Shown: positions 19,854-58,100 of the stretch, in pieces
Layout of the letters: every line of letters starts with the position of its first letter
How positions within the stretch are numbered: position 1 is the first letter of the stretch
Assembly: GCA_030141605.1 (NCBI GenBank)
Contig: JAQGDQ010000074.1
Location: 616,773 to 680,772 of the forward strand
From: Tubiluchus corallicola
Lineage: Eukaryota > Priapulida > Priapulimorpha > Priapulimorphida > Tubiluchidae
Length of the DNA: 64,000 nucleotides
Direction of reading: 5' to 3'
Notes under the pieces: generated by a model
The model's input: the letters and a program-made list of their open reading frames with translations, nothing else
What the model was told of the DNA's origin: nothing
Database searches by the model: none
Position numbers and translations under genes: made by a program

Positions 19854-20102
19854 AATTGGACAAATCAATTATGTCTGACGAAGAAAGTAAACAAGAACAA
19901 GAACCCATAGAAACCCAGGCTATCCAGCAGGATAACCCATCTGGTGACTCTGTTTCTGCCGAACAGTATGAAGAAGCTGAACCTGTGTATGATATTGAAG
20001 ATGAGGAAGATGGAATTGAAAAATCAGATGAATATCTCAAACTAGTTGGCTTGGGCTTGTCAGGCAAAGTAGTATCTGAAATAGAGGTCATTTATAGTGA
20101 AG
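19854..20102 (+). CDS. hnRNP exon 1 (first coding), ATG at 19871
   Basis: An acceptor (TTACTTTTCTTAG) at 19853 precedes the ATG, so an untranslated exon lies upstream, unseen. ATG at 19871 gives MSDEESKQEQEP, an acidic start. Ends GAAG|GTATCT, phase 1. Confidence 0.85.
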
Positions 20103-23100
20103 GTATCTATTGATATTGCTAGTAACGTATGTGTCACTGAATAAAATCTTGAATAAGCAGCTGATTAGTTATTAGCGCCAGTCTGGTTTAAAAGAAATCA
20201 TATGAAACTTATGGTTGCGCAAATCACATACCTCATTAAGCCTAAGTGTATTAAAGGTTTACTTGAGTAGACTGTCTCAAGTAATATGTTCTGTCTTTTT
20301 TAGATATGCTCTTGTCAAAATATCAATTTTGGACATTTGGTCATATGGAAAAAATTGTGGTTTTGAATGTTGTAAATTTACAATTTCATTGACTGCTGGT
20401 GTCGTATGATGTATGTTTGGTATAAGCTCAACTGTTAAGCTCTACTTCTGTTTTTACATGATTTTGTTGTTTAAGCTTATGTAACCTAATTAATGTAGAA
20501 TTTTGTTGATGCATTGAAATATGATTAACTCCAAATCTGTTAGTTTCACATAATTATGTGTGCATGCTTGTACACGCACATGCATGTACAACTCTCTCAC
20601 AAACACACAGTGACAATTTTAAGAATTGCCATGTTACTTGGACTTTTTTTAATTAGGCCTGATGTCACCCGGAGAACTTGATGAGCGAGCAGTTGATGCT
20701 CTTAAAGAATTTCCAGTTGAAGGAGCTATCAATGTTTTAAAGCAATTCCGCGAAACGAATTTGGAGCATGTCACAAACAAAAGCGCATATTTGTGTGGAA
20801 TGCTGAAGACATTTAGGACAAGGAACAGAATGAAGGGCGATCAAGCCACACTCCCTAAAGGTCCTGATGAGGCTAAATTAAAGGTGCTAGAATTTGTTTT
20901 CATTGTTAGCTCAGTTTATCTGAATAAGGTAATAAATTTGTTAAGTGTAAATTTTTTAGTAAATTTGACGCGTTTATGAAAATCACATTTACTTTCATAG
21001 CATGATTACTTTTATATCTATTGTTGCCCTTTCGCCATATGGTGCAGTCGTAATTAATTCTTGGTTAATAAAGTCAGTAGTGATGCACCGAGATTCAGAA
21101 CAGCTGGATTTATTTTTGGTTCATTTCATTTAGTTGGTAAAAAGAAATTTGGTCGAAATTTTGCAAATTCAGTTTGTTTAAACAAATTCGGTCGAGACTG
21201 GTAAAAAATTCATTTTTATAATTTGGAATTTTTTCCGATGAATGCTGCCATTAAGCAATCCAATTAAGCCTCAAATTATAAAAATGAATTTTTTACCAGT
21301 CGCGACCGAATTTGTTTAAACAAACTGAATTTGCAAAATTTCGACCAAATTTTTTTTTACCAACTAAATGAAATGAACCAAAAATAAATCCAGCTGTTCT
21401 GAATCTCTCAGAACAGCTGGATTTATTTTTGGTTCATTTCATTTAGTTGGTAAAAAGAAATTTGGTCGAAATTTTGCAAATTCAGTTTGTTTAAACAAAT
21501 TCGGTCGCGACTGGTAAAAAAATTCATTTTTATAATTTGGAATTTATTTCCGATGAATGCTGCCATTAAGCAATCCAGCTAAGCCTGGCAAAACCAACCT
21601 ACAATTTTTCAACAAAACTGTTTGCGCGTGGTAGGCTGGCAGCTTGAAATAGCTTCATAAAATTTTACCGTTTGGGGTGATGCACCTGGATGCCATGAAG
21701 TTGTATACTTGTCGACGTCTTCATTTCTAAGATATACATACACATGCTTTTCTTGTTAATTTAGCAGAAAAAATTGAGAATTTTGCATAGATTGTCATTA
21801 CTGTCAACATTGTTCAGTGACTTTGGTGTAAAAATGTGTCAAGCTCATGTGCTCAAATGCCTATCAAATGCAAGGATATGAGTTTTTTTATTCATTAAGT
21901 TGGGAACACGGCAAATTGAAGTTTAGTGTAAAATATTTGAATACGTTAAATGTTGACTATGTGATTATTGATTAAGCTACAATATTAAAGTAATTACTAT
22001 AATGTTATCTGTTAACGAAAATTGGTTACCTACTGTAATATGTAAACATCAATGGGTTTACATAATACAAAAATTTTACCTCTCCAAGTGTGAATATAAC
22101 CCCCTTTTGAAAAACCTACTGAGCCTACTTGTAACTATTGAAATTTATTACTATAAGTAAATAATTCTGTTTCAGTAAAAAATGCGAAATTTGGCTAAAT
22201 TTGGTGTCGGTAAAACAAAATAGTAGAAATTCGGTTTAGATTTGGTACTGGTTCGGTTCGGTAAAATTCGGTATGCATCTCTAAAAACCAGTTGTATAAC
22301 TTTGTTCTAGCCGACTTTTGAAAAAACTTCTTAGTAAACAAAACGGATACATATTCATATTTTGATGTCTATGCATATATTCAAGTCAGTTTTACCTGGC
22401 ATATTGAAAAAAGTTATATACATAATAGGTCTCTGGTATAAGAAATATAGCACTGTGCTTTTTTATAGGAAATCTTGGATAGGACTAAATATACGTTGGA
22501 TGTGACTACAGGCCAGAGGAAGTATGGAGGACCTCCACCAGATGTTGATCCGGATGATCAGCCTGGACCTGGCTGTGAAGTAAGCGATCTAAATGTCCTA
22601 ATTGAATCTGCAACTTTGCATTTTTTTGTTTTAATTGTTAAATGTACTTGAAAACTTGCAACTTATTTTCCAAACAGTGCAGGTTCGGCATTTAAACAAC
22701 TTTATCTGAAGTGTAAGCAAAGAGATTCTAGAACACATTGTCAGCCTTTTATCTGGTTATACTTATCAATAAAGAAGTAGTTTACTGAAAAAGAAGCAAC
22801 TAATTTGTATCATTAGTTTGGTGCTTTGCCTGGCAGCAATATTTTTTGAAACATATAATAGTAATCATGTGGCTTGTAGAAAAATAGTAGTATACTACCG
22901 TGAGTCCTATCTTGTTTTAAACTTGATTGTTTTTATCTCTTATTATTTATTTAAACAAATGTTCACACAGAAAGTTCATCCGTAGAGGAGGCAAGTGCAT
23001 GGCTGAGTGCTTAAAGCATCCATCATCTTGACCAAAGTTAAGAGTGGCACCTAGACTGGTCAGTTAACAGATAGATGAACCATTTTAGTTCCCACTCTGG

Positions 23101-26100
23101 GCAGTCTCATTCTGGGTTTTTGTCTCATAGAGGATGAAATACACAAGTATCTGAATGTAACTGAGATACTGGCTGAATCAGTCATTCATCGAGTCATCAT
23201 AGAGGCGTAACCTTGATAATGAGTCAGATTCGGTCTTGACTTGCCGACCAAACTTGAGCAGTACCTGCTACTGAATCCTGAGTGCGAGTGTTCTAGGCTC
23301 AGGACAGGATCCGGTTCGGCATCGGGATAAACAACATTCACTGTATTTTAATTTACACTTAAAATATTGAAATTACTACGTAACATACACTCATAAATGC
23401 CTCACTGCGAAATGCATAAGTACTACACAATATAATTACGTGTGGAATTCTGCAGAGCTACGAGCAAACAGAAGGTGCGGGGCGGTTTACTTAGCTTATA
23501 GTGTTCAGTATTAGCTTGTTAAAATAATTGCTTTGTTAATTTGTCGGTGTTGACTAACTAAGGTGGAGATGACTATATTATCGTCGGTAACTGGTTTTCA
23601 TTACATAGTGGGCAATTTCGTTCATGAAAAAAACCAAAAATAGTTTTAATAATCTATCTTTTGGATTGTTTGTAATTGACAATAGTAACTGTAGCTGCAA
23701 AAGAAGTTTGGAATAAGTATCTATATTGCATGGTAACCAGATGACGCCTTTTTTTTCATTTAAAACGAGCATGCCAAAGCTTGCAGAGATCACAACTTTA
23801 AATTTGTTTTACTAATTACACGAGTTTGTGTCATGAAAAGATAATAATATGCATTAAATTACTTAACTTAATTACAAAACATTTAAAAATAGCTCTTGAC
23901 AAATGTAATGCAGATATGGTTAGTAAAATCTCAAAAGATATGTTCTCACAGAATGTAAGCGAATGTAAATTGTTCGTTTTTCTCGTCTCGAAAAATTTTT
24001 AAATTTTGTAGTCGGGATCGGGGATGGGACTGAATGTTTCGGAACGAAGTTCGGGATCAGGAGTCGGGATCGTGAAGACCCTGATCCCGAACATCCCTAA
24101 TGATAGATGTCACAAATTTCGATAAACTCTTTAACTTCTTTTGGATTGGAAAATTGGCATCTGAAGGTTGTTGGTAGTATGAAATAAATAAATCTGAGCA
24201 TAAATTTGATATCTGTTTTAGGTTTTCTGTGGAAAAATCCCTAAAGACTTGTTTGAAGATGAACTGATTCCTTTATTTGAAAACTGTGGGAAAATTTGGG
24301 ACTTGCGATTAATGATGGATGCATTAACTGGACTAAATCGTGGTTATGCTTTTGTTACATTTTGTGACAAAGAAGGTGCCAATGAGGCAGTGAAGCAGGT
24401 TTGTTGCAAAAAGATTTATTGATGCTATTGCACAACAGTTTTGCAATTAGATTATCAAAAAGCATTTAAAATTAATTAACAGTGATATGTAACAACATGC
24501 AATCTCAGCAAAATATGTTAATCTATGCCTAGTGCGTCTAATGTACCTTAGTTTGTTGAAATATGTTGCTAATCACTGTAAAGTGGCTTTTCTTCAGCCC
24601 GAACCTTTCTGAAAAAGTGAACTTATGTTGTATAATTACGTGACCATAAGTAACACACCGAGAAAGCCGTTACATTTTCTAAACGGAAAGGTAACCTGTT
24701 TTTCTGCAAAAAAATTTGCGTTAAATAATACATATTGTAAGTCAATAATTGATTATTGAAATATTTCTACAGTCTTAAAACGTTTTTTTATAACAATATT
24801 TATGCCAACTATCTGGCCATTGTCTTGATGGCCAAACTGGCCAAACACCTAAATACTCCCTTGGCGTAGGCAAGCATAAAACTTTGTCCCTTGTGTAGTG
24901 CTTCATTAATGACATTTTCAGTTTATTTAACCAAGTGATTTCATTTCAGTGAACTATGCTATATGCCAAAATAGAATTTCTTGATTGATATTTAAATTTC
25001 GCTGACACTGTCTGCCTAGTTGTTTCAAGAATAATTTTTTTCATCATAATCTTTCGTGGAGTCTATCTACATATTCAAATGAATTCAAAAAGTTTTTTTA
25101 AGAACTTCATAAATGTATTGCTAAAATTAAATAAAATATAGTACAGGTGAATTGTGTTTAATGTAACATGGAGTGTAAAAGTGAGAAATTAGTTTTTAAC
25201 AGAATACAGGATGGTTTTTCATATCCTACCCCATTTTCTAGTACAGTAAAAAGTATACATTTAAATACCAATAATACTGCAAACACGTTTCTGATAATTA
25301 AAACTAATAGTTTAAAATCTTAACAGTGGGTGAGCCCATCTATTGATGACATCACAAATGAACACAATTTTGAACAGCACAAACATTCTATGGGCGTGTT
25401 GCACATGTTTGTGAAAGCGAAGATTGAAGTACATTATTACTGTAAGAGATTCATTGTGTTGTACTAAAACTTGCCAAGAAATTTCAAATTTACCACTGTG
25501 CTCACACACGAACTGTCAAACGTATACTATGTCACAAACGAACACCTCTAAACTAAGAGGTACTGTACCTGTTTTTGTGCAACTCGTTTCCTAAATACAG
25601 GCACTAGTGACCGTCTAACTAGCAAATGGCGAAATGCATGTTTACAAAAGTGAAGAACTAGTGGCTTGAATGCGGAATTACGTTTGTGTGGTGGTAATTC
25701 TTTCATTTCAGTCATTCTTGGAAAAATATTATGTTCCCTTTCAATATTTTGAAGAATGGTTGTTTTGACCTACAGTTTAAGCTTGGGTCCGGTTTTCCTT
25801 TTACTTTCAATATTTTAACTGTTGCGATCACTCAGACTGCATTTATCTTTGAAGTTTGATGCATATCTTTTAACCTGTAAAAATTAACAAGAATAGTTAG
25901 TTACCTTAATTCAGACATGAAGTGTAAAAATAGAACTAAAGAATTAAATTTTCAGCATCCTATATCTACATTTCAAAGATATGTCAATTTTATTTCATTT
26001 TATTTTAATTTGCATTGTTTGCAGTCAGCAATTTTGATATGAAGTTTAAATAATAGAATGAAAAGGTTTTAATATCTTATTTTCATATTCCGTGTTACAT

Positions 26101-29100
26101 TAAAAACAGTTCATTTGTACTAGATTATAGAAAGTCCTCGCTTAATGATGCCTTGTTTAGCAACGTTTCATTTTAATGATGTTGATCTTTTGACACCTTT
26201 TATTCACTTTGTGATTTGCTTGTGTCAATTTTAACAATGATTTTTTCGGTCTTTGAGTACTGAAAATTTGTTTGCTGCATTCACGTTTTATAAAGATGCC
26301 CTACTATCACAAATCTCGGCAGTAATTTTACCCTACTAAACAGGAAGTGATGATTCATTGCTGATCATTTGCTAGTACTCTGCCACATAGAGGTACAATT
26401 CCTCCGAAAATACTCTCGTGCTACATAGCTGGATTAATTATGGCTGCATTCGCCTCATTTGCATTTAGTTGTCGGAAGAAACAGCACCAAAAATATTTAT
26501 CATGAATGTTAAAGAGAAATGATTAACGTTTAACATTTACATGCAGCTTTTACATTTGAGTGTTCAGTGTAAACTTTAGTTTTCTTTTGGTTTTAGTTAA
26601 AAACTGTCAGAAGCAAACTTCAAGTGTTTGACTTATGAGCCAAACCTTATTAATTATGTCCTGCAATGCAACATAGCCAGGCATTATCGACTTTTTTCCT
26701 GCAGCATAACCTAGTGATTGCTTTACCTAAGCTAAGCATTATTGATCTTTGCCTGGGGAATACAACTGAATGCTTTAACATTGTATTCTATGGAAGGTAT
26801 TGTTTCATATAAAGAAGCTTCCCTTAACGAGATGTTTTGCTCAAATGCATTAGCATCGTTAAACGACTTACTAATCTTACTGTCTTTCATTTAATTCATT
26901 GATATATTTGTTCTTCAAATTCTTAAAAAGTCTTGTTTTTTTAGTTCAATTGAAAATGCAGATAGACCCTACATGATCAAACAAACTATTTGCCTAGTTG
27001 TAAACGTGTTTTGCTTATAAACCTTTTTTGACATTTGTTTTAAAAAAGCATTTTTACATGTACTTTTTTATTTATGATCATGGAAACTTTACTAATTTAC
27101 TAAAAAGTAAAAATTGTTATTTTTTCAAGTTTCGGCTCAAGTTTTTACTTACAAAGTATTATTCAGAAACTACAACTAACATCTAATCTTGCAATGTAAA
27201 GTTCTGAGTCTGCTATCTTTTTAAAATAAGCTTTGCAGAGACAAGCACTTTTCTTGAGACATTTATGTATTTTAAATTCTTATTAAGAGTTTTCATTTTT
27301 AAGTTCTTCACGCACTACAGATACTTTGGTTAGCCAAATTATAAAAATTTCGATGAAATTGATAAGTAAATAAGAATAAGTCTGCCAGACAACTTATTTA
27401 AAAGAGCTGCTTGATTGTGCCTTTTTAATTATTATTATGATTATAATGTGATCAAGCAAAGCACCAATTGTTTTTGTGTGCATCTACTTTTTCAAATGGT
27501 TAATAATTAATATACGCATTATATACGTGTTCTGATGCATATTGTGTTCTAATGCATTTGTATTGCATTTCTTTTGTATATAATTTTATTGTTTCATGAA
27601 TTTGTGTGTGTGTTTGCTTACTGAAGTGGAATGAGCTTATGATGGATTGGTTTGCCACGGTTTCAGTTTTTCACTAGTGTTATCGAAATATAGGTGCCCG
27701 AATCATTAGTTTGACTACTATCTGAAATAGCTGCATTTTTGAATCATTTGTTTTGGCTACTATTTCAAGTAGCTGCATTTTTCAGGAAAAGTTATGGCTC
27801 CTTCCATTGTGGGATCATTTATTTATCATGCTGTTTGTTTCTTCTCTCCTTTCAGATTGATGGGATTGAAATTCGCAAAGGCAGGCGTATAAAAGTTAAT
27901 GTATCGGTGGCAAACCAAAGATTGTTCGTTGGAAACATCCCTAAAACTAAAGACAGGGATGAGATATTTGAGGAATTCAGTAAGCAGACATGTAAGTAGG
28001 AGGCGGGATTCGCCGGTTTTCAGTTTTAACCCACCTCCTGCTCAATTTCATCATCCATTAACTCATTGGTACTAGGTTCGTTTTACAGTTGGACAAGTAT
28101 GAGATTAGAAAGGGGCGATTTCTAGGTGTGTGCAAGTCGACCAACAATACCCGCGTGTACATTGCCAATATACCTAAGCACAAAGATAATGAGGAGATAA
28201 AAAGGGAATTTACACAGCATGCTCGTAAGTTTGAGCAAACTGCAAACCAGTAGCAGTGCTGCTCGTTGTTGGTAACTTGTTTATTTTGGGATTTAATAGC
28301 ATAGCTTTCAGGCATATGGTTCAAACATGTACCTTGTTGCAGTTATTGTTGTATCTGTTTTCACCGTAAAAATTATAACCAGCTAACTATTAATTATTGT
28401 TTTCTTTTGTGTTTTTGAAACACGTAGTTTGCCAGATTTAGCTTTTTGACATAGTTTCCAAAATTCTTTTTTGTTCACTGTTTCGCATAATTTTGCCGGT
28501 ACAGTAAGTCCTCAGTTAACGAAGCTTATACTTTTACGGAAACACGTGAGGGTGGTACTGATTGCTTCACAGCCCAGCATAGTGCAATCACAGCTCTAGT
28601 ATTGTGGTGTTTGGCTGTTGTGCGCATGCGACCATCTGAAGCAAAATGCTGCACTGCTGGCGTCTGCTGCTAGGTAGAGAAAGTACCATGAAAATCTGAA
28701 TGGCTTCAGCAGTTGACCACATGGTGAAACACCTTTTGGACTGGAAGTCATTTTTTGGAATGATTTTTGGCATTCATAATTTGTTCATCTGTGTAGGTGT
28801 TCAACTACAAATGTATCAATTCACTAAGCGTCACCAGGTTAATACATGCCTATAATACAAAACCAATGAGCTTCTTTGATCCTGTGTTGTGACTTCTGAA
28901 AACCTATAAATTGTAGTCTATCATGATAAAATTCGAGTTTTGAAAATGGCATATCCCAAATAAGATAGGAGCATTCTGACATTTCCAGCATGAAATTCAG
29001 TTGCAGTTTACCCACAGTGCTCACATTTTTAGCTCCATACAACATTTATTTTTTAGTATATAGAAGCTCAAACGTACTAGAAACGTATTTCGGGCACTCA

Positions 29101-32100
29101 CGAGTAAAAATAAATGGCGTATACCTCATTTTGAAATATTAATAACTCTAGAAGTAGGAGTTGGACTCTGAAATTTTGCATGTGTTCATCACAGGTACTA
29201 GGTTATTTTTGAGAATTTATTCAAGCATATCTGAGATGGTCACCTGAGCAGTTGTTAAAAATCTAGGTGAGTTGACACAGAAGCAAAAATCAGTACTCTT
29301 GTTTGTGTAAGTGTTCTATTGCTCGTAGCAGAACAAAAATCAGTGAAGCTTAGCTATGTAAATGTGTTCAACTGCGCTACACGAGAAAAATCAATAACAC
29401 TTGCCTCATAAATTAAACACTAGGGTTGATTGCTTACAGCTGTACATTAGATATGTTTAATTAAAGAGCTTAGGAGTAACCAAAGTAGAAAATTCGAATC
29501 TAAATTTGAAACACAGTTCCTTCCTCATTTTGTTGTTCTCTTTTATAAATTTCTCCTGTTTTTTTTTATAAAATGTCTGGGTGGATTGCTAGGGTTTTTT
29601 TCCTTTTTTCAGCCGCCAATTATAACACTGCGTCGCGTTTAAGTCCCGTCTTACTTTCGAGTTGCATTCTCTATTAAGGTCGTTTTTAGTATCGTGCTAG
29701 TGGTTGGTAATTAAGTCAGTCTTAAGTGAAAAAGGTGTCAAAAGATTAATGTCGTTAAAACGAAACGTCGCTAAGTGGAGCGTCGTTAAGTGAGGACTTG
29801 TTACTTTTGCCTTTTTCAAAATTCTTATATAGCAGTTCTAGAAACAGTAGTTAACTGGATGGATGGTTTGTAAATAATGAAATACTGATTTTCAAAGTTT
29901 GCCAGTTACACTAGAATTTGTACAACAGTGTGCCTGATGTTTGTCAGTAAAGTGCAAAGGAAAACTTATCATAGTTTATACATATGTATTCAATGATTTG
30001 CGTAATTGGTCATATTTACAGCTGGTTTGCTGGAAGTCATAATCTATAGTTCTCCAGACGACAAGAAGAAAAACCGTGGATTTTGTTTCTTAGAGTACGA
30101 AAGTCATAAGGCTGCTTCCTTGGCCAAACGGCGCTTAAGCACGGGCCGAATCAGACCATGGAATTGTGATATTATTGTCGACTGGGCAGATCCTATCGAT
30201 GAACCTGATGCAGAAACTATGTCCAAGGTAGCTCTTTAAACTATTTTTTACAAATTTGCCTGTGAAAATACAAATCCCGGTATAATTGAAGCATTCCCAG
30301 TCATAATCTAATTCATGATATCGTTAAGTGCCAGCTAATTTGTTGGTTAACGGTTAATTTTTATTCATTTCAGGGCTAGAATATTTCGTGATATTTTGCC
30401 AGAATCTAAGCAGATTCTTGCCGTGACTTTTTATGGGAATTCAGAGATTGAGGTTTAAATTACATAGTTCAAGTACAATGAATTATAATTATTGAAACAG
30501 TGAATTACTGAATTTCAATTCTTCTTCATACTGTTATCTTCATACTGAAACCTAATATTTCGAAATTCAATCTCCAAGCCATTTAGAATTTTGTTGATTC
30601 TTCTCTTTGTCAGTGAACCACATTCATCATTTCCTTCATCAAGAAGTGCACAAGCATTTGAAACAAGAATTGCTTTAAATTTATGCAAAACACAAAAATT
30701 TTGACAAACTGCCGTTTACAAACTTTACCCCATATTCTTGTTTCCTTGGGAATGAGTGTGGATCCCTACAATTTTTATATGCAACTCTAAATGAAAAGCG
30801 TAGTGCACCAAAGACACTTGTGAAGTAACAAAATCAGCTCACAATGTGGCAGTGCATATATGCTAGCGTAAAGTAAAAAACGAAAAAGTAAGTTTAGTGC
30901 CTGTGTTTTATTTTTTTACATTCATGTAAAGCCTGCCATTAGATTCGCGGTAATGGGCGTTGGCAAATGGATTCGGGGATTCGCGTCAAAATTCTGGCAC
31001 ATCTATACAACTTTCTAGTACGCTAGTTGAATAACTTAATTATTACAGGTGAAGGTTTTATATGTTCGAAATTTGAAATCCGATGTGACAGAAGATAAAC
31101 TGAAAGAGCTGTTTGATCCATTTGGCAAGATCGAACGAGTTAAGAAAATCAAGGATTATGGATTTATACATTTTGAAGAAAGGGATGACTGCATTAAGGT
31201 TTGGGATAACATTGTTTATCTTTAAACTATATGTGCTAGAAGTTTGTTCTGGAGCAGTAAACCTAATATTGTCTGGGGGTTGAAATTCACTTTGCCCACC
31301 AGCTTGGGGCTAGCAGAATGTTGTAAAGTTAAGTGTAGTTAACCAGTTACAAGCCCGACAGGCGAGTATGCTCAGTCAGACAAGATAGTAACTGTAAACA
31401 TACACATGCATTATACATACGTTTTGAATATTCGCTGGCAGAAAATGTTGTTTTAGTTCTCTGTTTGTTACAACTCAGTGCACTTATAAAATAATGTATT
31501 TCTGCATCCTGCAAGCATCCACGACAGGTAGACCTGTGCTAGAAATCCTATCGGCAACTTGAGCACTTGTAAGCTTGTGCCTTATTTGTGATTAGAGACA
31601 AATGAACCAGTCTGATAGGCGGGAATATAAACATAAAAATCTGTGTAGCAGGCAATCAGAAAAGGCTTAGTGTATTTTTTCGTGCTAGTAATGGAAAACA
31701 AACAAATAATACAATTCACTGTTTAAATAAAATGTGTAACATTAAGCAAATTGTATATCATCAAATGCAAAAAGTAAAATGTATTTTACCAATTATTTTC
31801 TTCTTTTTCTTGTTCAGTGCTCACTGACTGTTTCGTAGATATTAATGTAAATTTTCTGAAATATTGTTTTTTGTGCACAGTTAAAATGCATAAGTGTGTA
31901 TTTACTAACATAAATATATGACGTCTATATCACTATATGAGATGAAGTTTGAAGCTTGTTTTAGAAGGCCTTGTATTAGACTCATTCTTTTATATAACCG
32001 TGACAGGAAAAAATGTAGAATGAACCAGATGCAGGAAACCTTAAGGTGAAGTTATTTTTCTGGATTTTTACGTTGCATAAAAAGTAACTGTATTGCTGCT

Positions 32101-33149
32101 TTTAAACTAGGCCATGGAAGAAATGAATGGAAAAGAAATCGAGGGAGCTAATCTTGAAATATCATTAGCAAAGCCACCTACTGACAAAAAGAAAAAAGAA
32201 CAGCGAATGAGAGAGCAAGAACGCCGACTCATGATGATGAGGGGGTAGGTTCTTACGTATGAGCATGTTATTATGATATGATTATATATGTTCTAAATAC
32301 CGCATGGGCATTAACCAATCATGTTATAGTTTATCTCCAGAAAGCAGCACTGAGTATAATGGAAACCTGTTGTTGTGTTTGCTTCAAAAATTGCCTGTGA
32401 CAACATTCATACTTTTATATATATTTTGTCTGTAGATATGGCGATTATTATGGTTACCCGCCTTATTACGTGGGAGCACAGACTCGCCGCGGTGGTGGCC
32501 GAGGTGGTGCATCGTCTTATGGAAATGGTAATTTTTTATACTCTTGATTAGTGTAATAATGTAATAATAATATAATAATTTGACAAGTCGGCAAAGTTTG
32601 CATTCAATGTTTCACATGTTATTTTGTGCTGTTTTTTACTTGTACTTTTGCTACTGAAACTTTTGGTTTCTTTTTATTTTTTATGTTTAATTAATATAGA
32701 GGAGCTGTTCCCTCTGTTTTGCAGTTTTTCATATTATTACTGTTGTTAGCATTATATTTATTTGGAATATTCTGTTCGAGTATAATTGACGTTCTATGGT
32801 ATTTAATGCTAATTGCATCTTTATTTAGCCTTGCCATTACCAGTGTCAGTATACAATGTGTACACCACTTTTAGGACTGAAAAGGGCAAAAATATAATAC
32901 TTTTTTGCTTAATATTAAACTGTCATAGTAGGACTGAAGTGAAGAACACCTTTTTTAATGTTAAGCATCGTTACCCGATTTTATTTAATTGAGCTTTCTC
33001 TGCAAAATGGCATGTTTGACATTTTTATAGGATCATGGCCTGGAAATGCTTGGTATCCACCTGCATGGTATTGGCATTGGGGTACTCCTGCTACGTATAC
33101 ACGTGGGTCACGGCGAGGTGGGGATCCTCGCGTGACTTCGCGACGTTAG
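19871..33149 (+). CDS. hnRNP Q/R family RNA-binding protein (SYNCRIP/HNRNPR homologue)
   Basis: Ten exons (19871-20102, 20657-20883, 22469-22579, 24222-24398, 27856-27991 or 28089-28224, 30022-30227, 31049-31198, 32111-32244, 32436-32527, 33031-33149) join to 1584 nt, 527 aa, in frame throughout. Residues about 45-130 match the N-terminal acidic domain of hnRNP Q/R (LDERAVDALKEF, NKSAYLCGMLKT), then GPDEAKLK and YTLDVTTGQRKYGGPPP. RRM1 about 191-270 (VFCGKIP, RGYAFVTF), RRM2 about 271-352 (LFVGNIP, RGFCFLEY), RRM3 about 364-436 (LYVRNL, DYGFIHF), then a basic helix and a short Arg/Gly/Tyr/Trp tail, much shorter than the RGG tail of vertebrate hnRNP Q/R. Family members bind mRNA in nucleus and cytoplasm and act in splicing, stability and translation. 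The acidic domain places it with hnRNP Q/R rather than A1CF. Confidence 0.93.
20657..20883 (+). CDS. hnRNP exon 2, acidic domain
   Basis: Encodes GLMSPGELDERAVDALKEF to GPDEAKLK, the core of the hnRNP Q/R acidic domain. Ends phase 0 at AAG|GTGCTA, a weak donor. The frame stays open into the intron. Confidence 0.9.
21078..22283. mobile_element. hAT-like non-autonomous element with 8-bp target duplication, in hnRNP intron 2
   Basis: The left end TAGTGATGCACCGA and the inverted right end TAGAGATGCATACCGA form matching termini. Flanks AAAGTCAG (21070-21077) and AAAACCAG (22284-22291) match at 6 of 8 positions, both differences being transitions, as expected for an aged hAT target-site duplication. 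The 1206-bp interior has no transposase but contains an inverted triplication (separate entry). Confidence 0.75.
21091..21595. repeat. inverted triplication (A, inverted A, A)
   Basis: About 180 bp at 21091-21271 reappears inverted at about 21272-21404 and again direct at about 21408-21590, with few differences. Landmarks are CAGAACAGCTGGATTTATTT, TTTGTTTAAACAAA and GACTGGTAAAAAATTCATTT. The junction between the second and third copies is CTGTTCTGA-atctc-TCAGAACAG, a near-perfect palindrome with a 5-base spacer. Confidence 0.9.
22469..22579 (+). CDS. hnRNP exon 3
   Basis: 37 codons, phase 0 to 0: EILDRTKYTLDVTTGQ, then KYGGPPP, then an acidic DVDPDDQPGPGCE. Follows TTTTTTATAG, ends GAA|GTAAGC. 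Confidence 0.9.
22980..24115. mobile_element. probable hAT-like relic in hnRNP intron 3
   Basis: The right end CCTGATCCCGAACATCCCTA (about 24081-24100) reads inverted as TAGGGATGTTCGGGATC, a hAT-like terminus. CGGGATC/GGATCCGG-type subterminal motifs occur at 23305-23330 and 24010-24080. The left end could not be fixed. The stretch at about 22998-23040 has an A-box-like TGGCTGAGTGCTTAAAGC and could be a separate SINE. Confidence 0.4.
24222..24398 (+). CDS. hnRNP exon 4, most of RRM1
   Basis: 59 codons, phase 0 to 0: VFCGKIPKDLFEDELIPLF, IWDLRLMMDALTGLNRGYAF, VTFCDKEGANEAVKQ. Contains RNP2 and RNP1 of RRM1. Follows ATCTGTTTTAG, ends CAG|GTTTGT. Confidence 0.93.
26128..26873. mobile_element. 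pogo/Tigger-like non-autonomous element, copy 1, in hnRNP intron 4
   Basis: The left end AAAGTCCTCGCTTAATGATG and the inverted right end AGTAAGTCGTTTAACGATG match the ends of the copy at 28502. It is preceded by a TA dinucleotide. The interior shares GCAACGTTTCATTTTAATGA and CTTTTGACACCTTTT with copy 2 but inverted. No transposase remains. Family assignment rests on the CAGTAAGTCCTCGCTTAACG-type end and TA target. Confidence 0.65.
27856..27991 (+). CDS. hnRNP exon 5a, alternative exon (canonical RRM2 start)
   Basis: 136 nt, enters in phase 0, leaves in phase 1. Encodes IDGIEIRKGRRIKVNVSVAN, then QRLFVGNIPKTKDRDEIFEE and FSKQT: the last strand of RRM1, the linker and RNP2 plus helix 1 of RRM2. 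Follows CTCTCCTTTCAG, ends ACAT|GTAAGT. A second donor (GTAAGC at 27980) lies 12 nt upstream in the same phase. The SVAN-RLFVG block is the one conserved in hnRNP Q/R. Confidence 0.92.
28089..28224 (+). CDS. hnRNP exon 5b, alternative duplicate of exon 5a
   Basis: Also exactly 136 nt, phase 0 in and phase 1 out, starting 97 bp after exon 5a. Encodes LDKYEIRKGRFLGVCKSTNN, then TRVYIANIPKHKDNEEIKRE and FTQHA: 21 of 45 residues identical to 5a. The LGVC stretch resembles vertebrate hnRNP Q/R, while RNP2 changes from LFVGNI to VYIANI. Follows TTCGTTTTACAG, ends GCTC|GTAAGT. No stop or frame damage, so it looks functional. Confidence 0.88.
28502..29801. mobile_element. pogo/Tigger-like non-autonomous element, copy 2, in hnRNP intron 5
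   Basis: The left end CAGTAAGTCCTCAGTTAACG follows TA; the inverted right end reads AAGTCCTCACTTAACGACG, then TTAGCGACGTTTCGTTTTAA. It is oriented opposite to the copy at 26128. About 1.3 kb, no transposase. The right end is slightly damaged, so the last few bases are uncertain. Confidence 0.7.
30022..30227 (+). CDS. hnRNP exon 6, RRM2 core
   Basis: Starts with two bases completing the codon split after exon 5 (TCT after 5a, CCT after 5b). GLLEVIIYSSPDDKKKNRGF, CFLEYESHKAASLAKRRL, DIIVDWADPIDEPDAETMSK. RNP1 is RGFCFLEY. Ends AAG|GTAGCT, phase 0. Confidence 0.93.
30371..31006. repeat. dispersed repeat family B, copy 1, filling hnRNP intron 6
   Basis: Clearly similar to 51581-53013 in the same orientation: TTTTGCCAGAATC, TAAGCAGATTC, CAAGTACAATGAATTATAAT, then TTTGAAACAAGAATTGCT, GATTCGCGGTAATG. 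The left end CAGGGCTAGAAT is hAT-like, and TGCCAGAATTTT appears inverted at the right end. It is 636 bp against about 1.43 kb for the other copy, which has about 700 bp more in the middle. Confidence 0.75.
31049..31198 (+). CDS. hnRNP exon 7, RRM3
   Basis: 50 codons, phase 0 to 0: VKVLYVRNLKSDVTEDKLKE, LFDPFGKIERVKKIKDYGFI, HFEERDDCIK. Ends AAG|GTTTGG, a weak donor supported by the phase and homology of the next exon. Confidence 0.92.
32111..32244 (+). CDS. hnRNP exon 8, end of RRM3 and basic helix
   Basis: AMEEMNGKEIEGANLEISLA, KPPTDKKKKEQRMREQERRL, MMMR. Ends phase 2 at GGG|GTAGGT. The basic helix follows RRM3 as in family members. Confidence 0.92.
32436..32527 (+). CDS. hnRNP exon 9, Tyr/Gly/Arg-rich
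   Basis: GYGDYYGYPPYYVGAQTRRG, GGRGGASSYGN: a short low-complexity segment with RGG-like repeats. Phase 2 in, phase 1 out, donor GTAATT. Confidence 0.88.
33031..33149 (+). CDS. hnRNP exon 10 (last coding)
   Basis: GSWPGNAWYPPAWYWHWGTP then an Arg/Gly tail (TRGSRRGGDPRVTSRR) and TAG at 33147-33149. It is tryptophan-rich, unlike the vertebrate tail. A strong GTAAGT at 33184 lies 35 nt past the stop, so the 3' UTR may be spliced. Confidence 0.85.
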
Positions 33150-44740: not shown

Positions 44741-47700
44741 TTATAAACGGATATGATCATCAACAATATTGAAAACGCTTCCTATCCTAAGAAAAAATCT
44801 CCGCAATATATATCCCATTTCTTGTTTAACTTGTTGTCCTACCATTTCACAAAGACTAGGGTAGTAACTGGCAGCATGCTGTTTAAATCTTTCATCTGGC
44901 ATTTTTAAGGTACCCGAAAGAAAAAGAAGCAACAAGCTACACCAAGCTTCACGGTGACTTTCTGACTGCAGTGTTAAGAAATAATCCAGTGCATCTTTAC
45001 ACACAGTAATGAGCCGAGTTTGTACTTCTTGCCAAGCATCACGTCGTCCATCATCCGTATACATTCTGTATAAGATTCGAAGAGCGCAGGCCAAGCTGTT
45101 TGTTTCTTGTTTCAACAAATTTGGCTTTACCTTGCCCTTAAATCCAGCTTTCCACAGCAGATTTCTCTGCTCTTGATTAGAGTTAAAAGCCTTGGCAAAC
45201 TTGTGTGATTCCATTAGACAGTCCAGCAGGCGAAACAGTTGCTTGGAGGTTAGATAGGAGTACATTCCCTGTTCCTCCTGCTGACAATCAGATTGGGCAA
45301 AGGGAGTTTCTACCAAGCCAGCTTGAGCTGCAGCCAAATTTTCAGCATCCTCCTTACGGCTTGTAGCAGGATAAAAAATCACGTTATCGATAGTCTGAAT
45401 CAACTCAAGCTGTACAACGCATTTAATCAAAAGTGCAGAAAACAATTTATGATCACTGCCTTGTTTTATCATCCTGCCATGACGAATGAATTCATGTTCC
45501 ATTGAAATGGCTTCACTGCTCTTCCTATCACTAGTCAGTTCTTGGACATTAGTCAAATTTGCTGTAGGTGAGTCTGGCATTTTAATGTATCCATCAGTTT
45601 CACCAGGTTTCCAGGTCAGCAAAGCTGCAGGTAAGGTTTTATTGAATATGTCTAACATAAGGTCACAGGTTTTGTCCCAAGTCGATATGTCAAACTGATA
45701 ACCTGTCGAAATGACCAAGTTTTCCAAACAGTTGGTTCCGGATCGTGCAAGTTGCTCATTGTCTTGCTGAACACACCAAAAAAGCTGAGCATATAAATCA
45801 TCCAAAAGGACATCATTTAAAATGGAAAAATATTGTGTGAAAACATCAACTATTGCATAAAGTGCGTGATTGCATGTGGTAGTCATCCATTCAGATTTCT
45901 CACTCTGTTGCTCGGGTAATTTCATATTATCAAATATGCGAAACAGGACTCTGAAGATATCTCGCCACCAGTGCTCTTTGAATGCTTCACCATAGGTCTT
46001 CATGATTTCAAACATGACAGTCAAACCGCGGGTTCGTACATCAAGACCGCATCTATTGATAACGCAAGACAACTCGAACATAACTGGAAACCAACCTTTT
46101 ACCCATACTCTGTCATCTTCAGATATGTGCAAGCCCTCTCCAGTGTGTTCACGAAACATTTGAGGCTTTTCAGCAACATACTTAGCACAGTTGCGAATCA
46201 GACGAATAGCTTCCATACTAGTGTCCGGAAAAGCTGCATTACATGCAAATTCTGACAGACATTTCACTGCATCTTGAAATGAATCAATCATGGCAGCAAA
46301 GTATTTTTCAAAGACCGAAGATATTATCTTTCCCATGGTTTGGAATGCCAGTTCAACAATACTTTCGTCATGATCAGATGCTGCCAAGTGAAATACACTG
46401 AAAATATTTTTCCAACCAGACTTTATGTTGTGAGCTTGAGAATTAACCATTTGCGCAACACATCTTACAACCATATCTCTAATTGTCGGAGACTTGTTCC
46501 TTTTCATTATGTGTTCAAAGGGTCGTAAAAAGTCTTTCTGGAAACGAAAGTTGGCAAATTCTCCTTTCTCTATGAATTTCATTGAAAGTTGACGAAGGGA
46601 GTCTACTGCGAAGAAAGCTATATCCTCATTCAGATTACACCCTACTTTATTGAAATGGTCACCAAGTATCTGCCAAATTCGTGACCACTGTAATCGAATT
46701 CGCCCCATGTTGTAATAAGAGATTTCCACAATTTTTTGTAGACTAAACATACGAGGATGTGATGATGATGACAACTCCTCTTCAGAAACATGACACAAAG
46801 CTGTGACAAAATAAACTATTGCATCACCATCAAGCCTCGTTGAACCAGTAAATATTCTGTCAACTGCAACAACCACGCTTTGGGAACTAGTCTCCCCCAT
46901 TGATTCTTGAAGACTTGCCATGCGCTTTTGATCCATTTTAGGTACAGGTACCATCAAGCCATCTTCATTTTGATGGGCTTTATCACTGTGACCATGTTTT
47001 GCATTCCCAGAAATAAACCTGGTTCTTGCACCTGTCCCAATAAGCTGAGCTAGTTCCAGTTGAGAAATACATTTTAATATCTCCAACCAAGACTTTCCCA
47101 GATAATTACCATCAGTTTGTGCAACTGCAATTAGAGTCTTAATTGTATCAATATTTTTTGCTTTCATTTCAGTAATCTGTGAGTTAGCTGTAAGTAAGGT
47201 GAATCTAGACAATGCCTGTGTGTATGCATCTCTTTCTAGCTCCATTTCAAAGATGCAGGAAATTCTAATTGCACATCTCAGGCCATCTAGACACAGTGAA
47301 GCAATCTTCGTGTCATCACAATCTTGTAAACCTACACTATATGCGGCTAAAAAAGGCGTCCAAGCAACTTTGAACATAGGCCGTACATGAGCAAGATGTG
47401 TAGCTGATGTGAAAGGTGATTCCACATGACTGACACTTTCCATCAAAGCTTTAGCAGTCAATGCCATCTGCTCCATTTCCATATTGTAGATTAACTTGCG
47501 CTGCTTTTCACTGGACACATTATGTGTTCCTTTCCTGGATGGTTTACTGCCAGTTGGTTTCATTGTTATTTCTGCTCCTGCAATCTCGTCATAAATTTGC
47601 GACAGGTATTCCTCTGGGAGGTCCTTGCTATCATTAATTCCTCTGTTCATCTTAATATATTGCTCCTTGGTCATTTTGTGCTTAACTTGTGGGCTCCACA

Positions 47701-49999
47701 AATCAGTTGCTAGCATTATAATCGAATATGCCAACACATAAGCAGTGTCTGCACTGGCAAATATGCCCATAGTAGAGTTAGATTCACAGTATCTAGCGGC
47801 AAACTTCTCCATGAATCTATCTATTTTCTGGGCCTCACCTGGAAGTCGAAAACCCTCCAAGAATGTTCGAAGTGCAGAAACAAAATCCTTTCCTGTAAAA
47901 TTCATTTGGTCCACGTAGCAATACATTACTTCTTTATTTAACTTTTCATTCTCACCCATGTAATCTCCTACGACAGTTTTATCAAGCCTTTCTTCACTGT
48001 GAAAAAAAGCTGCTATGTCATCAGGAGAGGTACCAATTACTTCTTGCTTCATCAAAAAATCAACCCCCTTTTTGGGATGCTTATTGAACATATCTATGCC
48101 TTGTTCAAGAATTCCTTTCTGTTGTTTAATCGTTTCAAATTGTTCGGGGTTGTCAAGAACAGCGTTCAAATTAGCATTTGATCCTCCTGCATTTTGAGAG
48201 CTCAAGGAATTACTGCTACTTGTGCCTGATATACTTTTTGACTGATCTATATCCTTGTGATCAGCAATGTCTCTACGTCCTTCCTGACCAAGGTAAGTTT
48301 GAGAACTAGGATTGACATACAGATCTTTGGACCACTCAACCATGCACTTCAGTATGGACACTAAACATTCTAATGATTTAACACGCATTGCTTTTTCTTG
48401 GTTAGGTGTTGCACCTAATTCTACACCACGGGCAATTTTTGAGAGATCGTTTACCAAGCGCTCAAAAATATTAGCAAGCGCCATATCACAGTCATAGTTA
48501 ATGTAAATGTCCACTACACTCTGTGCATCTGCACAAATTCTTGTTAGTGCCTGGATAACCATCCACTTGTGCTGGAAAGAGCTGCTGGAGGTCTCCAAAA
48601 TGCTTAGGAAAATCTCTTTAAAGAAAACCTCAATTTGCATTTTTAGGTGGGCTTTAAAACTATATAAAAGTGTCACAAAAATGGCAAGAGAAAGCTCAAA
48701 TATTTCTGGAACAGAGGAGACACCATTCTTTGATAGCGCAACACAAAGATACTGCTTAATGGCATTAATAAACATTTCATTTTGCTGAAATACCGGACCT
48801 GCATTCTGCAGAATAGAGAGAAGCAGTTGCAAAGAAAGTATCTTTGATCGCAACTCATGAGATTTATGGTCTACTGGGCCTTCTGGCAATGGCTTCATAC
48901 TAAGCTTGCACAAAGAACGAAAAACAAGAAATGCATCCTTTTGCAGAATGTGTGAAAAGTTTGCATGAATTTGTTCATGCATATCGCTACCATCGACAGA
49001 AACAGTGTCTTCTGATCCTAAGGCTGAAACATAGTCTGGTGTCCCTAGCTTGGTGGCACTGGAGTTAGGAGAAACATTCGAGTTCTCTTCAACATGCATG
49101 CCAAGCTGATTTGGAACTATCAGATCGATAGAACTTGATGCTGATTCTACAGCATTAACTACCAAATCCTGTATAATTGTTCCCACAATATTTTCCACAG
49201 TCTCGTCTTTAAACTCTTCTTTTGAAGTCATTTTAACAGAAGCATAATTTTTATCACCTATGACTTCATCTTCTTGGGCTAAAATCCCATTACTCAATTG
49301 TGCTTGGACAGGCTCATCAATAACTTGCTTCTGTTTTTCTTCACTTTCCAGCTTTTCCTTCACATCTGCTACAGCCTGATTCTCCATCCGTGCAAAGATG
49401 ACATTGAGCATCTGTGTGAGAGTTGCTTTCGCAGTAGTTTGGTTAATAAGATTTTTACTAGCAAGATAAATGTTATAACATGTACGAACTGCTTGCAATA
49501 TGGAGCCCTCGTGTATTTCACAGTTAGTAGAAGTAACAGCTGTCAAAAGCGCCTTGATGATTTGAAGCTGTACGCCCTCATCAGTCTGTGTTCCATGAAA
49601 GCAACTACATATTGTCTCAACAATCCTATCAATAAGAAGTTGTTCAGGATTCAGGCTGTCTGGTGAACTGCCAACCAAATGCCCATATGCTATTAGTTTT
49701 TGTAGACAGTCAAGAGCTGTAACTACTATCCGAGGGCATTTTGAACGACAAGCAAGCTCAAACGGCAAAAAGTATTTGTCAGCTGCAACAAATGTAGTGT
49801 TGCTTCCCTTAGGCATGGGCAAGTAATCAGAAGAGTTGACTGAACCATCAACCCGAATTTCTCGTTTGATCTCCTCCAAAGCATCTTCACAAGCCTTCTT
49901 TAGTTGAGAATGGTAAGACCGCTTTATCTCCTTGTCTGCCAGTATCTTTTCCAAGGCTCTTGTGATAAACATGTCTTTGGTTCTCCGGGTTTCCTTCAT
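44741..49999 (-). CDS. BIG1/BIG2-type Arf guanine nucleotide exchange factor (ARFGEF homologue), single coding exon
   Basis: 1752 aa, close to the usual BIG length. The start follows BIG N-termini: [20 protein letters not shown], with a splice acceptor (CTTCTTTGTTTAG) ending two bases before the ATG, so seven in-frame codons upstream are intronic. DCB domain about 1-220 ([39 protein letters not shown]); HUS box about 500 ([20 protein letters not shown]); Sec7 about 625-815 ([53 protein letters not shown]); HDS repeats to the end ([15 protein letters not shown]). The glutamate of LPGE is the family's catalytic finger. BIG proteins load GTP on class I Arfs at the trans-Golgi and endosomes. Odd points: no intron in 5.26 kb, and a Trp where Sec7 domains normally have His (ATDLW). 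Confidence 0.96.
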
Positions 50000-50001
50000 C
50001 C

Positions 50002-50014
50002 CTAAACAAAGAAG
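50002..50014 (-). other. splice acceptor at BIG start codon
   Basis: CTTCTTTGTTTAG on the minus strand, two bases before the ATG. It implies at least one untranslated upstream exon, not located. Confidence 0.65.
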
Positions 50015-50029
50015 TGCCAAAAATTAGAA

Positions 50030-55164: not shown

Positions 55165-58100
55165 TCTTTACTCTGGGGGTAGATGGGGCTCCTTAGCCTT
55201 GGTCAGCAATCCCTCTAGGTGAAGGAAAACCCTGATCACAAATCTCCACTGCGTTGTGGCTATACCCTCCGTGAGAAAGGCGAACCAGCAAGTGCGGATT
55301 ACACTCAAGCTGCAGTCACAAACCTACACACAGGCGGCTCAGGGCATGTGGTCGCTCTCAACTGACCGAGGCAGCAGCGGAGTTCGGCAGCTTAGGAATG
55401 CTCTGCTCACCCCCGTAGCATGGGGAGCAAACTAGAAAAGGTGTCCCAAACATAGCCTGCCTCAACACTTTCCTGGTCCAGCAAGCCGCCGCTGGCGGGA
55501 AATCCCATCTGTGCGGTCGAAAGAACAAGACAAAAAATAACACTAACACTGGGTGCCTGGAATGTCAGGACATTACTCAACAATGGCAACACCAACAGAC
55601 CTGAAAAAAGAACTGCTCTTATAGCAAAAGAATTACAAAGATACAAAATTGACATAGCTGCCCTCAGCGAAACACGCCTTGCAGAGAAAGGACAACTCTC
55701 TGAAGCTGGCAGCGGATACACTTTCTTTTGGAGTGGGAGACCATCAGGCGAGAAAAGAGAGGCAGGAGTTGGATTTGCAGTCAGAAATGACCTTCTGAAG
55801 AACCTCTTAAAACTTCCAGATGGCATCAACGACCGGCTTATGACTCTCCAACTACCCCTCACGGAAGGGAAGAAAGCTACACTCATAAGTGCATATGCCC
55901 CAACCATGACCAACCCAGATGACGTCAAGGACAAATTTTATGAAGAACTAGATGCTACCATCATAAATGTTCCAACATCAGACAAGCTCATACTACTTGG
56001 AGATTTCAATGTTAGAGTGGGTACAGATCACCAATCATGGGAAGGAGTTATTGGCACACAAGGAGTGGGAAAATGTAACAGCAATGGGATCCTGCTATTA
56101 CAGGCATGTGCAACCCATGAACTCATCATCACAAACACACTATTCCGTCTTCCCAAGCGCAATAAAACAACCTGGATGCATCCAAGATCAAAATATTGGC
56201 ACTTGATAGACTACACCATCGTCAGGCAGAAAGGTCGGCAAGATGTGAGGGTGACTAAAGCAATGAGAGGTGCAGAGTGCTGGACAGATCATCATCTTCT
56301 CATATCCAAACTCAGCCTACACATCCAACCTAAAAGGTGACCACAAGGCAAAAAGACCATGATGTTGGGAAACTTCAAAATAAGGTAACTGCTAGCAGCT
56401 TCTCCCAAAGCCTTGACAAAAAGATCTCGGAGACATCTCAAGACGCCGCCACTGTTGACCAGAAATGGGAGCACTTCAGAGACCTGGTCTACTCAACAGC
56501 CCATGAACATCTAGAGGTTACTACTAAAAAACATCAAGACTGGTTTGATGAAAACGATCCTGAAATTATCACTTTGATAGCATCCAAACACCATCTACTT
56601 AGAGTACACCAAAATGACCCCACATCAGAAGCGAAGAGGGCAGCATTCATACATAAACGCAATGAGGTGCAAAGGAAACTCCTTGAAATGCAAGACACCT
56701 GGCTGTCTAGGAAAGCAGAAGAAATACAACACTACGCTGACACCAACAACTCAAAAAAGTTCTATGATGCCCTCAAGTCCATCTATGGTCCACAACCATC
56801 TGGGACTTCACCACTCCTCAAAGCAGATGGAACAAAGTTGCTAACTGACACGTCTGACATCCTAGAAAGATGGGCAGAACATTTCAACACCGACCATCAT
56901 CCATAAACGCAGAAGCAATAGACCGACTACCCCAAATGGAAATAAATGAATACCTAGATCAACCACCAACACTAGAGGAGATCGTCAAAGCCAATGAACA
57001 AACCTCCCATGGCAAAGCACCAGGTGCTGATGGAATACCAGCCGAAATCTACAAGCAGGGGGGCAGCAATGCTACAAGAACTTACCGACCTATTCCAGCT
57101 GATGTGGGAGGAAAGCAAACTTCCTCAAGACCTCCGAGATGCTACAGTTGTCCACATTTACAAACAAAAAGGGAACAGGCAGTCACGTGACAACCACAGA
57201 GGTATATCTCTGCTGTCCATAGCGGGTAAGACCCTGGCACGTGTCCTACTAAATCGACTGTTGTTGCACCTGGAGAAAGACCTTCTCCCAGAGAGCCAGT
57301 GTGGCTTTAGAGCAGGCAGAGGAACGGTGGATATGATCTTTGCTGCAAGACAACTTCAAGAGAAGTGCCAAGAACAGAACGTCAGCCTCTTCACAACATT
57401 CATAGACCTCACCAAGGCTTTTGCTACTGTCAGTAGGAATGGCCTCTGGAAGATCATAGAAAAATATGGATGCCCAAAGAAGTTTATTGATATTGTGCGG
57501 CAGTTTCATGAAGGTATGATGCTCGGAGTCCTAGATGACGGAGACATGTCTGAAGCCTTTGAAGTAACAAATGGTGTAAAACAGGGCTGTGTACTCGCTC
57601 CAACACTCTTCAGCATGATGTTCTCTGCCATGCTACATGATGCTTTTGAAAACACCCACGAAGGCATTAAGATAAAATACAGAACAGATGGCAGCCTCTT
57701 CAACTCCAGGTGCTTGCAAGCTACCACCAAGACCCATGTAACCACAGTCAAAGAATTTCTCTTTGCTGATGATTGCACTCTCAGTGCCACCTCCCAAGAA
57801 CAAATGCAAAGAGAGATGGACCACTTCGCATCAGCCTACAAGAACTACGGCCTAACAATCTCTAAAAGAAAACTGAAGTTATGTACAAACCAGCTCCAGA
57901 CGCCCCACAGGTTCAGCCAAAGATTTTAGTGAATGGTCAAGAACGTATCTCTGTTGACAACTTCACATACCTAGGGAACACCCTTACCACAGCTGCCAAC
58001 ATCAATACAGAAATCAATAACAGAATTGCCAAGGCTAGCGCTTCATTTGGAAGACTCCGCTCCAACGTATGGGACAGGAGAGGCATCAGAACCACCACAA

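Follow-up and report, generated by a model that had tools for sequence, protein, structure and literature searches.

It is very probable that exons 5a and 5b of a SYNCRIP/hnRNP Q/R gene in Tubiluchus corallicola arose through an old tandem duplication and are mutually exclusive. The pair lies in a 64,000-nt stretch of contig JAQGDQ010000074.1 (the window), to which all coordinates refer unless another contig is named. Taken as a whole, an exclusive pair that also retunes the RNA preference of the protein is the explanation that we consider likely.

The reading frame favours one exon at a time

Exon 5a (27856-27991, plus strand) and exon 5b (28089-28224, plus strand) are each 136 nt long, are entered in phase 0 and left in phase 1, and are separated by an intron of 97 nt (27992-28088, plus strand). 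They are identical at 21 of 45 residues and at 69 of 136 nucleotides. Exon 5a encodes the end of RRM1 (strand 4), the linker, and strand 1 and helix 1 of RRM2, including the RNP2 motif LFVGNI, and 5b encodes an alternative version of the same segment with VYIANI as RNP2. An earlier reading made from the letters alone (the sequence-only reading) had described two such tandem exons spanning the RRM1/RRM2 junction, and we confirmed their length, phases, spacing, similarity and position in the protein. It had also credited both exons with good splice sites: AG acceptors and GTAAGT donors are indeed present at both in the window sequence, but the acceptor tract of 5b looks weaker than that of 5a (judged by eye, unscored). 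The donors of the other exons read GTATCT (E1), GTGCTA (E2), GTAAGC (E3), GTTTGT (E4), GTAGCT (E6), GTTTGG (E7) and GTAGGT (E8).

With 5a alone or 5b alone, the frame remains open for 457 codons over E1-E8. Joining 5a to 5b adds F-G-Q-V and then meets TGA, after four codons, and leaving out both gives L-V-C-W-K-S and then TAA, after six codons in E6; both stops had been predicted and were reproduced. The predicted use of one exon of the two, as first proposed, is well supported by this frame, by the exon anatomy and by the coding selection described below. A search of both introns flanking the pair found no third copy, the best scores there being reached by 51/60 and 39/60 shuffled sequences.

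The host gene and its surroundings

By its domains, the gene carrying the pair is a SYNCRIP/hnRNP Q/R gene. As modelled on the plus strand, it begins with E1 (19871-20102), which holds the start codon and is the first coding exon, followed by E2 with most of the hnRNP Q acidic domain (20657-20883), E3 with the extension ahead of RRM1 (22469-22579) and E4 with most of RRM1 (24222-24398), which ends in phase 0 upstream of the pair. Downstream, E6 (30022-30227) is entered in phase 1 and encodes the remainder of RRM2, E7 (31049-31198) the first part of RRM3 and E8 (32111-32244) its end. The gene model ends with E8, beyond which a frame with RRGGGRGG lies near 32401-32544, a candidate for the RGG-rich C-terminal region of hnRNP Q/R proteins. 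The product with 5a contains three RRM_1 stretches and the acidic N-terminal domain PF18360 (74.8 bits; cut-off 26), and the hnRNP-R-Q model TIGR01648 scores 490.5 bits with the 5a form and 484.3 bits with the 5b form (cut-off 317.85). TIGR01648 alone is insufficient for the assignment, as an A1CF-like fragment on contig C1813 also scores 356.6 bits; since this fragment passes, SYNCRIP is told apart more sharply by its acidic domain. The protein encoded by exon 6 had no relatives in viral or prokaryote contigs, phages or plasmids. Searches for the cuticle family PF00379 and the mollusc haemocyanin family PF14830 yielded no match, a result that does not demonstrate absence, and the RRM family yielded 51; COX1 was likewise without a match.

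Elsewhere in the window, an intronless frame of 1,760 codons (44744-50023, minus strand) encodes a BIG1/BIG2-type ARF exchange factor with DCB, HUS, Sec7, HDS and BIG2_C domains. Among 18 Sec7 matches in the genome it is the sole one covering the domain in one piece, and intron loss or a retrocopy is a possible origin. LINE-like pieces lie in separate frames at 55456-57926 (plus strand), with an endonuclease at 55456-56337 and a reverse transcriptase at 56976-57926.

How one exon might be chosen

In the mechanism that we propose, mRNAs with both exons or neither would be removed by nonsense-mediated decay, and this decay would leave a useful mRNA pool containing one exon or the other. Joining of 5a to 5b may in addition be hindered by the shortness of the 97-nt intron, perhaps aided by a predicted hairpin (27995-28042, plus strand; -19.4 kcal/mol) that extends over 5a donor positions +4 to +6. 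The intron as a whole folds at -21.0, and 46 of 1,000 shuffled sequences and 8 of the 84 nearby stretches of 97 nt are at least as stable. For a longer stretch, 30/200 shuffles fold as well as the natural sequence, and the hairpin is marginal. A candidate branch point, TTAAC near 28061 (picked by eye), would lie some 69 nt away from the donor, a distance that drops to about 21 nt once the hairpin is discounted.

Further complementary segments occur around the pair. One, of 19 nt and 84% complementary, connects the upstream intron (27647-27665) with the middle of 5a (27900-27918), 234 nt apart. An inverted repeat with 70-nt arms, 80% complementary (26132-26201/29730-29799), flanks both exons; it is probably no specific control element, as its first arm has at least 58 matches in the genome, itself included. 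Some of these stand in tandem rows of about 66 bases on contig C1703, and the second arm is absent among the matches listed for the first (40 of 333 candidates scored).

Relatives of the exons elsewhere in the genome

In six-frame searches of the 343.5 Mb genome, 5a and 5b each retrieved the other (E 1.4e-5). Matching segments were found in two other genes, on contigs C2286 and C1813, and there was one weak match on C1933 (E 4.0). The C2286 exon (179879-180013, minus strand) is of the 5a type, has borders matching those of 5a and is part of a second SYNCRIP gene; PF18360, the acidic domain, occurs at two loci in the genome, this gene and the window gene. With 29/45 identical residues the C2286 exon is the closest relative of 5a in the genome, and it shares 21/45 with 5b. 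An exon of the 5b type was not detected around it, a tblastn search over 172001-190000 of C2286 yielding otherwise only weak fragments. Nor did the two introns adjoining the C2286 exon contain a convincing relic of 5b; the best scores were reached by 9/60 and 52/60 shuffles. The second gene (C2286 172001-182000) has an extra intron inside its RRM2 segment, in pieces at 177782-177916 and 177058-177129, where the window gene has the single exon E6.

On C1813, RRM1 and RRM2 lie within one open frame, and this RRM2 resembles that of PDB 2dis ('unnamed protein product'), which we take to be A1CF. We rejected C1813 as a third SYNCRIP gene given this resemblance and the restriction of the acidic domain to the window and C2286. 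Its segment is identical to 5a and to 5b at 24/45 residues each, and is nearer to 5b by BLOSUM score (127 versus 110 for 5a) and by nucleotides (74/135 versus 64/135); by BLOSUM score it is the closest relative of 5b in the genome. A single-sequence AlphaFold model of C1813 RRM1-RRM2, a poor one (mean pLDDT 59.3; below 50 at linker residues 85-88) that was used for strand limits only, places these at LGVCP and, after a gap of four, CRLFVGGIP.

Both copies appear to be under coding selection

Identity between 5a and 5b is 24/46 at first, 29/45 at second and 16/45 at third codon positions (first and second versus third, Fisher p 0.018), where composition on its own predicts about 25% for third and 29% for second positions. 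We simulated neutral drift without indels to the same DNA divergence, with 40,000 runs from each exon. The frame stayed open in 4,114 runs from 5a and 3,432 from 5b, about 9 to 10%; an identity of 21/45 was reached in one run of 40,000 from each exon, and no run attained the BLOSUM score of the natural pair. Both exons thus look old and under coding selection. This simulation bears directly on the idea that 5b is a dead duplicate that has lost its splicing, which would suit the weaker-looking acceptor tract of 5b and a C2286 gene without a detected 5b. Drift of that sort would seldom leave such an exon, and the AG, the GTAAGT, the length and the phase of 5b are all intact, so we regard a dead 5b as highly improbable.

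Exon 5b could instead act mainly as a poison exon, bringing in TGA when spliced beside 5a and damping the level of its own protein through decay. Self-regulation through stop-bearing exons is common in genes for RNA-binding proteins, and the stop four codons into the joined frame is what such an exon would require. A pure poison exon, however, needs no conservation at the protein level, and 5b has been kept as protein: its phase and length, its family-typical residues, its 24/45 identity with the C1813 segment and its full read-through when used alone make this function very unlikely as the main one.

The swap lies at candidate RNA-contact positions

The sequence-only reading had proposed that the swap alters RNA specificity by exchanging the last strand of RRM1 and RNP2 of RRM2, the latter with a change at an aromatic contact position. 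The exchange of both elements (LFVGNI for VYIANI) stands, but the aromatic change is weak, since RNP2 of RRM2 is aromatic in both forms, with Phe in 5a and Tyr in 5b. Both motifs are standard RNP2 motifs, and RNP2 would remain usable in either form. By analogy with DND1, an effect is at least as probable in strand 4 of RRM1 and in the linker, which we place first. In DND1, the side chain of C132 bonds U3, L130 touches the U3 ribose, A4 is recognised by R133, S134 and T135, and U5 is bonded by K137 (PMC9537309). Aligned to DND1 (PDB 7q4l), 5b places G-V-C-K-S-T-N-N on L130-K137 and 5a places K-V-N-V-S-V-A-N there. The two exons differ at four of the five positions L130, C132, R133, S134 and T135 (K/G, N/C, V/K and V/T), sharing the Ser, and both have Asn at the position of K137. 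Because 4/5 is close to the exon-wide difference of 24/45, these changes indicate location at the contact site, not enrichment there.

In the proposed mechanism, RNA-facing residues of RRM1 strand 4 would be swapped, with Lys and Asn in 5a and Gly and Cys in 5b and in hnRNP R, and so would the linker, with Val-Ser-Val in 5a and Lys-Ser-Thr in 5b, thereby retuning RNA preference. On this analogy we lean towards the view that choosing 5a or 5b retunes the RNA preference of the RRM1-linker-RRM2 unit, and the swap may alter RNA specificity in this way. The pair might instead be real and exclusive while RNA preference stays unchanged, the swap acting on stability, on RRM1-RRM2 packing, on a protein contact or through separate regulation. 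This would agree with the standard RNP2 of both forms, with identical residues at the S134 and K137 positions, with a contact-position difference near the exon-wide one and with the harmless DND1 mutation T135A, which did not reduce RNA binding (PMC9537309). We nonetheless consider it unlikely, because the exon covers the strand 4 and linker that touch RNA in DND1, and because charge and hydrogen-bonding groups change at K/G, N/C, V/K and V/T. The DND1 study calls its TEK linker unique in the family and states that only DND1 has a non-canonical RRM2 (PMC9537309), so RNA may follow another path on SYNCRIP.

A natural exon pair exchanging a strand and linker beside the RNA lends itself to comparing two binding modes, for which two purified proteins suffice. 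SYNCRIP is a regulator of mRNAs in neurons and germ cells, and one paper describes its mode of association with specific mRNAs as previously unknown (PMC4174441).

Age of the pair

In a quartet analysis based on summed BLOSUM scores and not on a likelihood tree, 1,980 of 2,000 column bootstraps favoured the grouping of 5a with C2286 and of 5b with C1813. With C1813 taken as outgroup, the exon duplication therefore probably precedes the duplication of the SYNCRIP gene, and the C2286 gene has either lost its 5b or never had one. Matching versions of a single protein segment would then be carried both by alternative splicing and by gene duplication.

Protein structures from other animals were compared over the 18 shared columns. 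PDB 9ejy (hnRNP R), which together with 6kor we take to represent vertebrate hnRNP Q/R, reads EIRPGKHLGVCISVAN, with G-V-C as in 5b and C1813. PDB 6es4 ('Syncrip, isoform K'), which we take to be the Drosophila protein (PMC5827114), reads HEIKPGKCLKINISV, with K-x-N as in 5a and C2286. The split between 5a, C2286 and 6es4 on one side and 5b, C1813 and 9ejy on the other was the best of ten in 1,648 of 2,000 bootstraps. Perhaps, then, the pair was already present in an ancestor shared with flies. Support for this age is only moderate, because 6es4 is about equally near hnRNP R (10/18, score 48) and 5a (8/18, score 47), its nearest relative being C2286 (11/18, score 57). Insect records presumably carry both versions of the segment. 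For Drosophila, passages of PMC10730016 speak against this: they give syp four promoters, a set of shared exons and four alternative C-terminal ends, with no mention of an alternative RRM exon. Splicing of fly Syp responds to the depletion of 11 proteins, the exon being unnamed in the excerpt of PMC4617972.

A wider reading is that RRM1 strand 4 and the linker form a two-state RNA-recognition switch kept since before the fly split, with one paralogue keeping one state after the gene duplication and vertebrates having a single, mostly ancestral state. We offer this tentatively, as somewhat doubtful, since the equal closeness of 6es4 to hnRNP R and to 5a weakens it, as do the limits of the DND1 comparison.

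Comparison with known systems

Vertebrate hnRNP Q/R proteins are not known to have more than a single version of the segment. They share the architecture of the window gene; the first half of the segment in 9ejy has G-V-C like 5b, and the second half in 6kor is more 5a-like (RLFVG-IPK, EEFSK). Drosophila Syncrip (6es4) belongs to the same family and has the K-x-N of 5a, its chain covering residues 1-18 of the segment in one version. DND1 (7q4l) has related RRMs arranged in tandem and joined by four linker residues, and its strand 4 and linker contact RNA; it differs in its own TEK linker and non-canonical RRM2 (PMC9537309). The docking and selector exons of insect Dscam are likewise tandem homologues of which one is chosen; unlike these, 5a and 5b are just two exons, around which we found no supported docking/selector pairing.

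A literature search at the level of titles and abstract openings retrieved no description of alternative RRM exons in SYNCRIP, exon databases and insect annotations lying outside its scope. In two papers on such exons, the main texts do not contain 'syncrip' or 'hnrnpr' (PMC5740500) or 'syncrip', 'syp' or 'cg17838' (PMC3923563). The closest system is exons 3 and Ab of U2AF1 (U2AF35), tandem homologues for which forms with both exons or neither contain stop codons and are reduced by NMD (PMC5224494). Like 5a and 5b, these are homologues of equal length in an RRM-like domain and alter the RNP2 part of that domain. They are 67 nt long with seven residue changes, in contrast to 24/45 changed between 5a and 5b, and their domain is a protein-binding UHM whose alternative splicing is demonstrated, that of 5a and 5b being predicted (PMC5224494 for U2AF1). 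This kind of exon pair was thus already known from U2AF1, and its instance in SYNCRIP is new as far as our literature search reaches.
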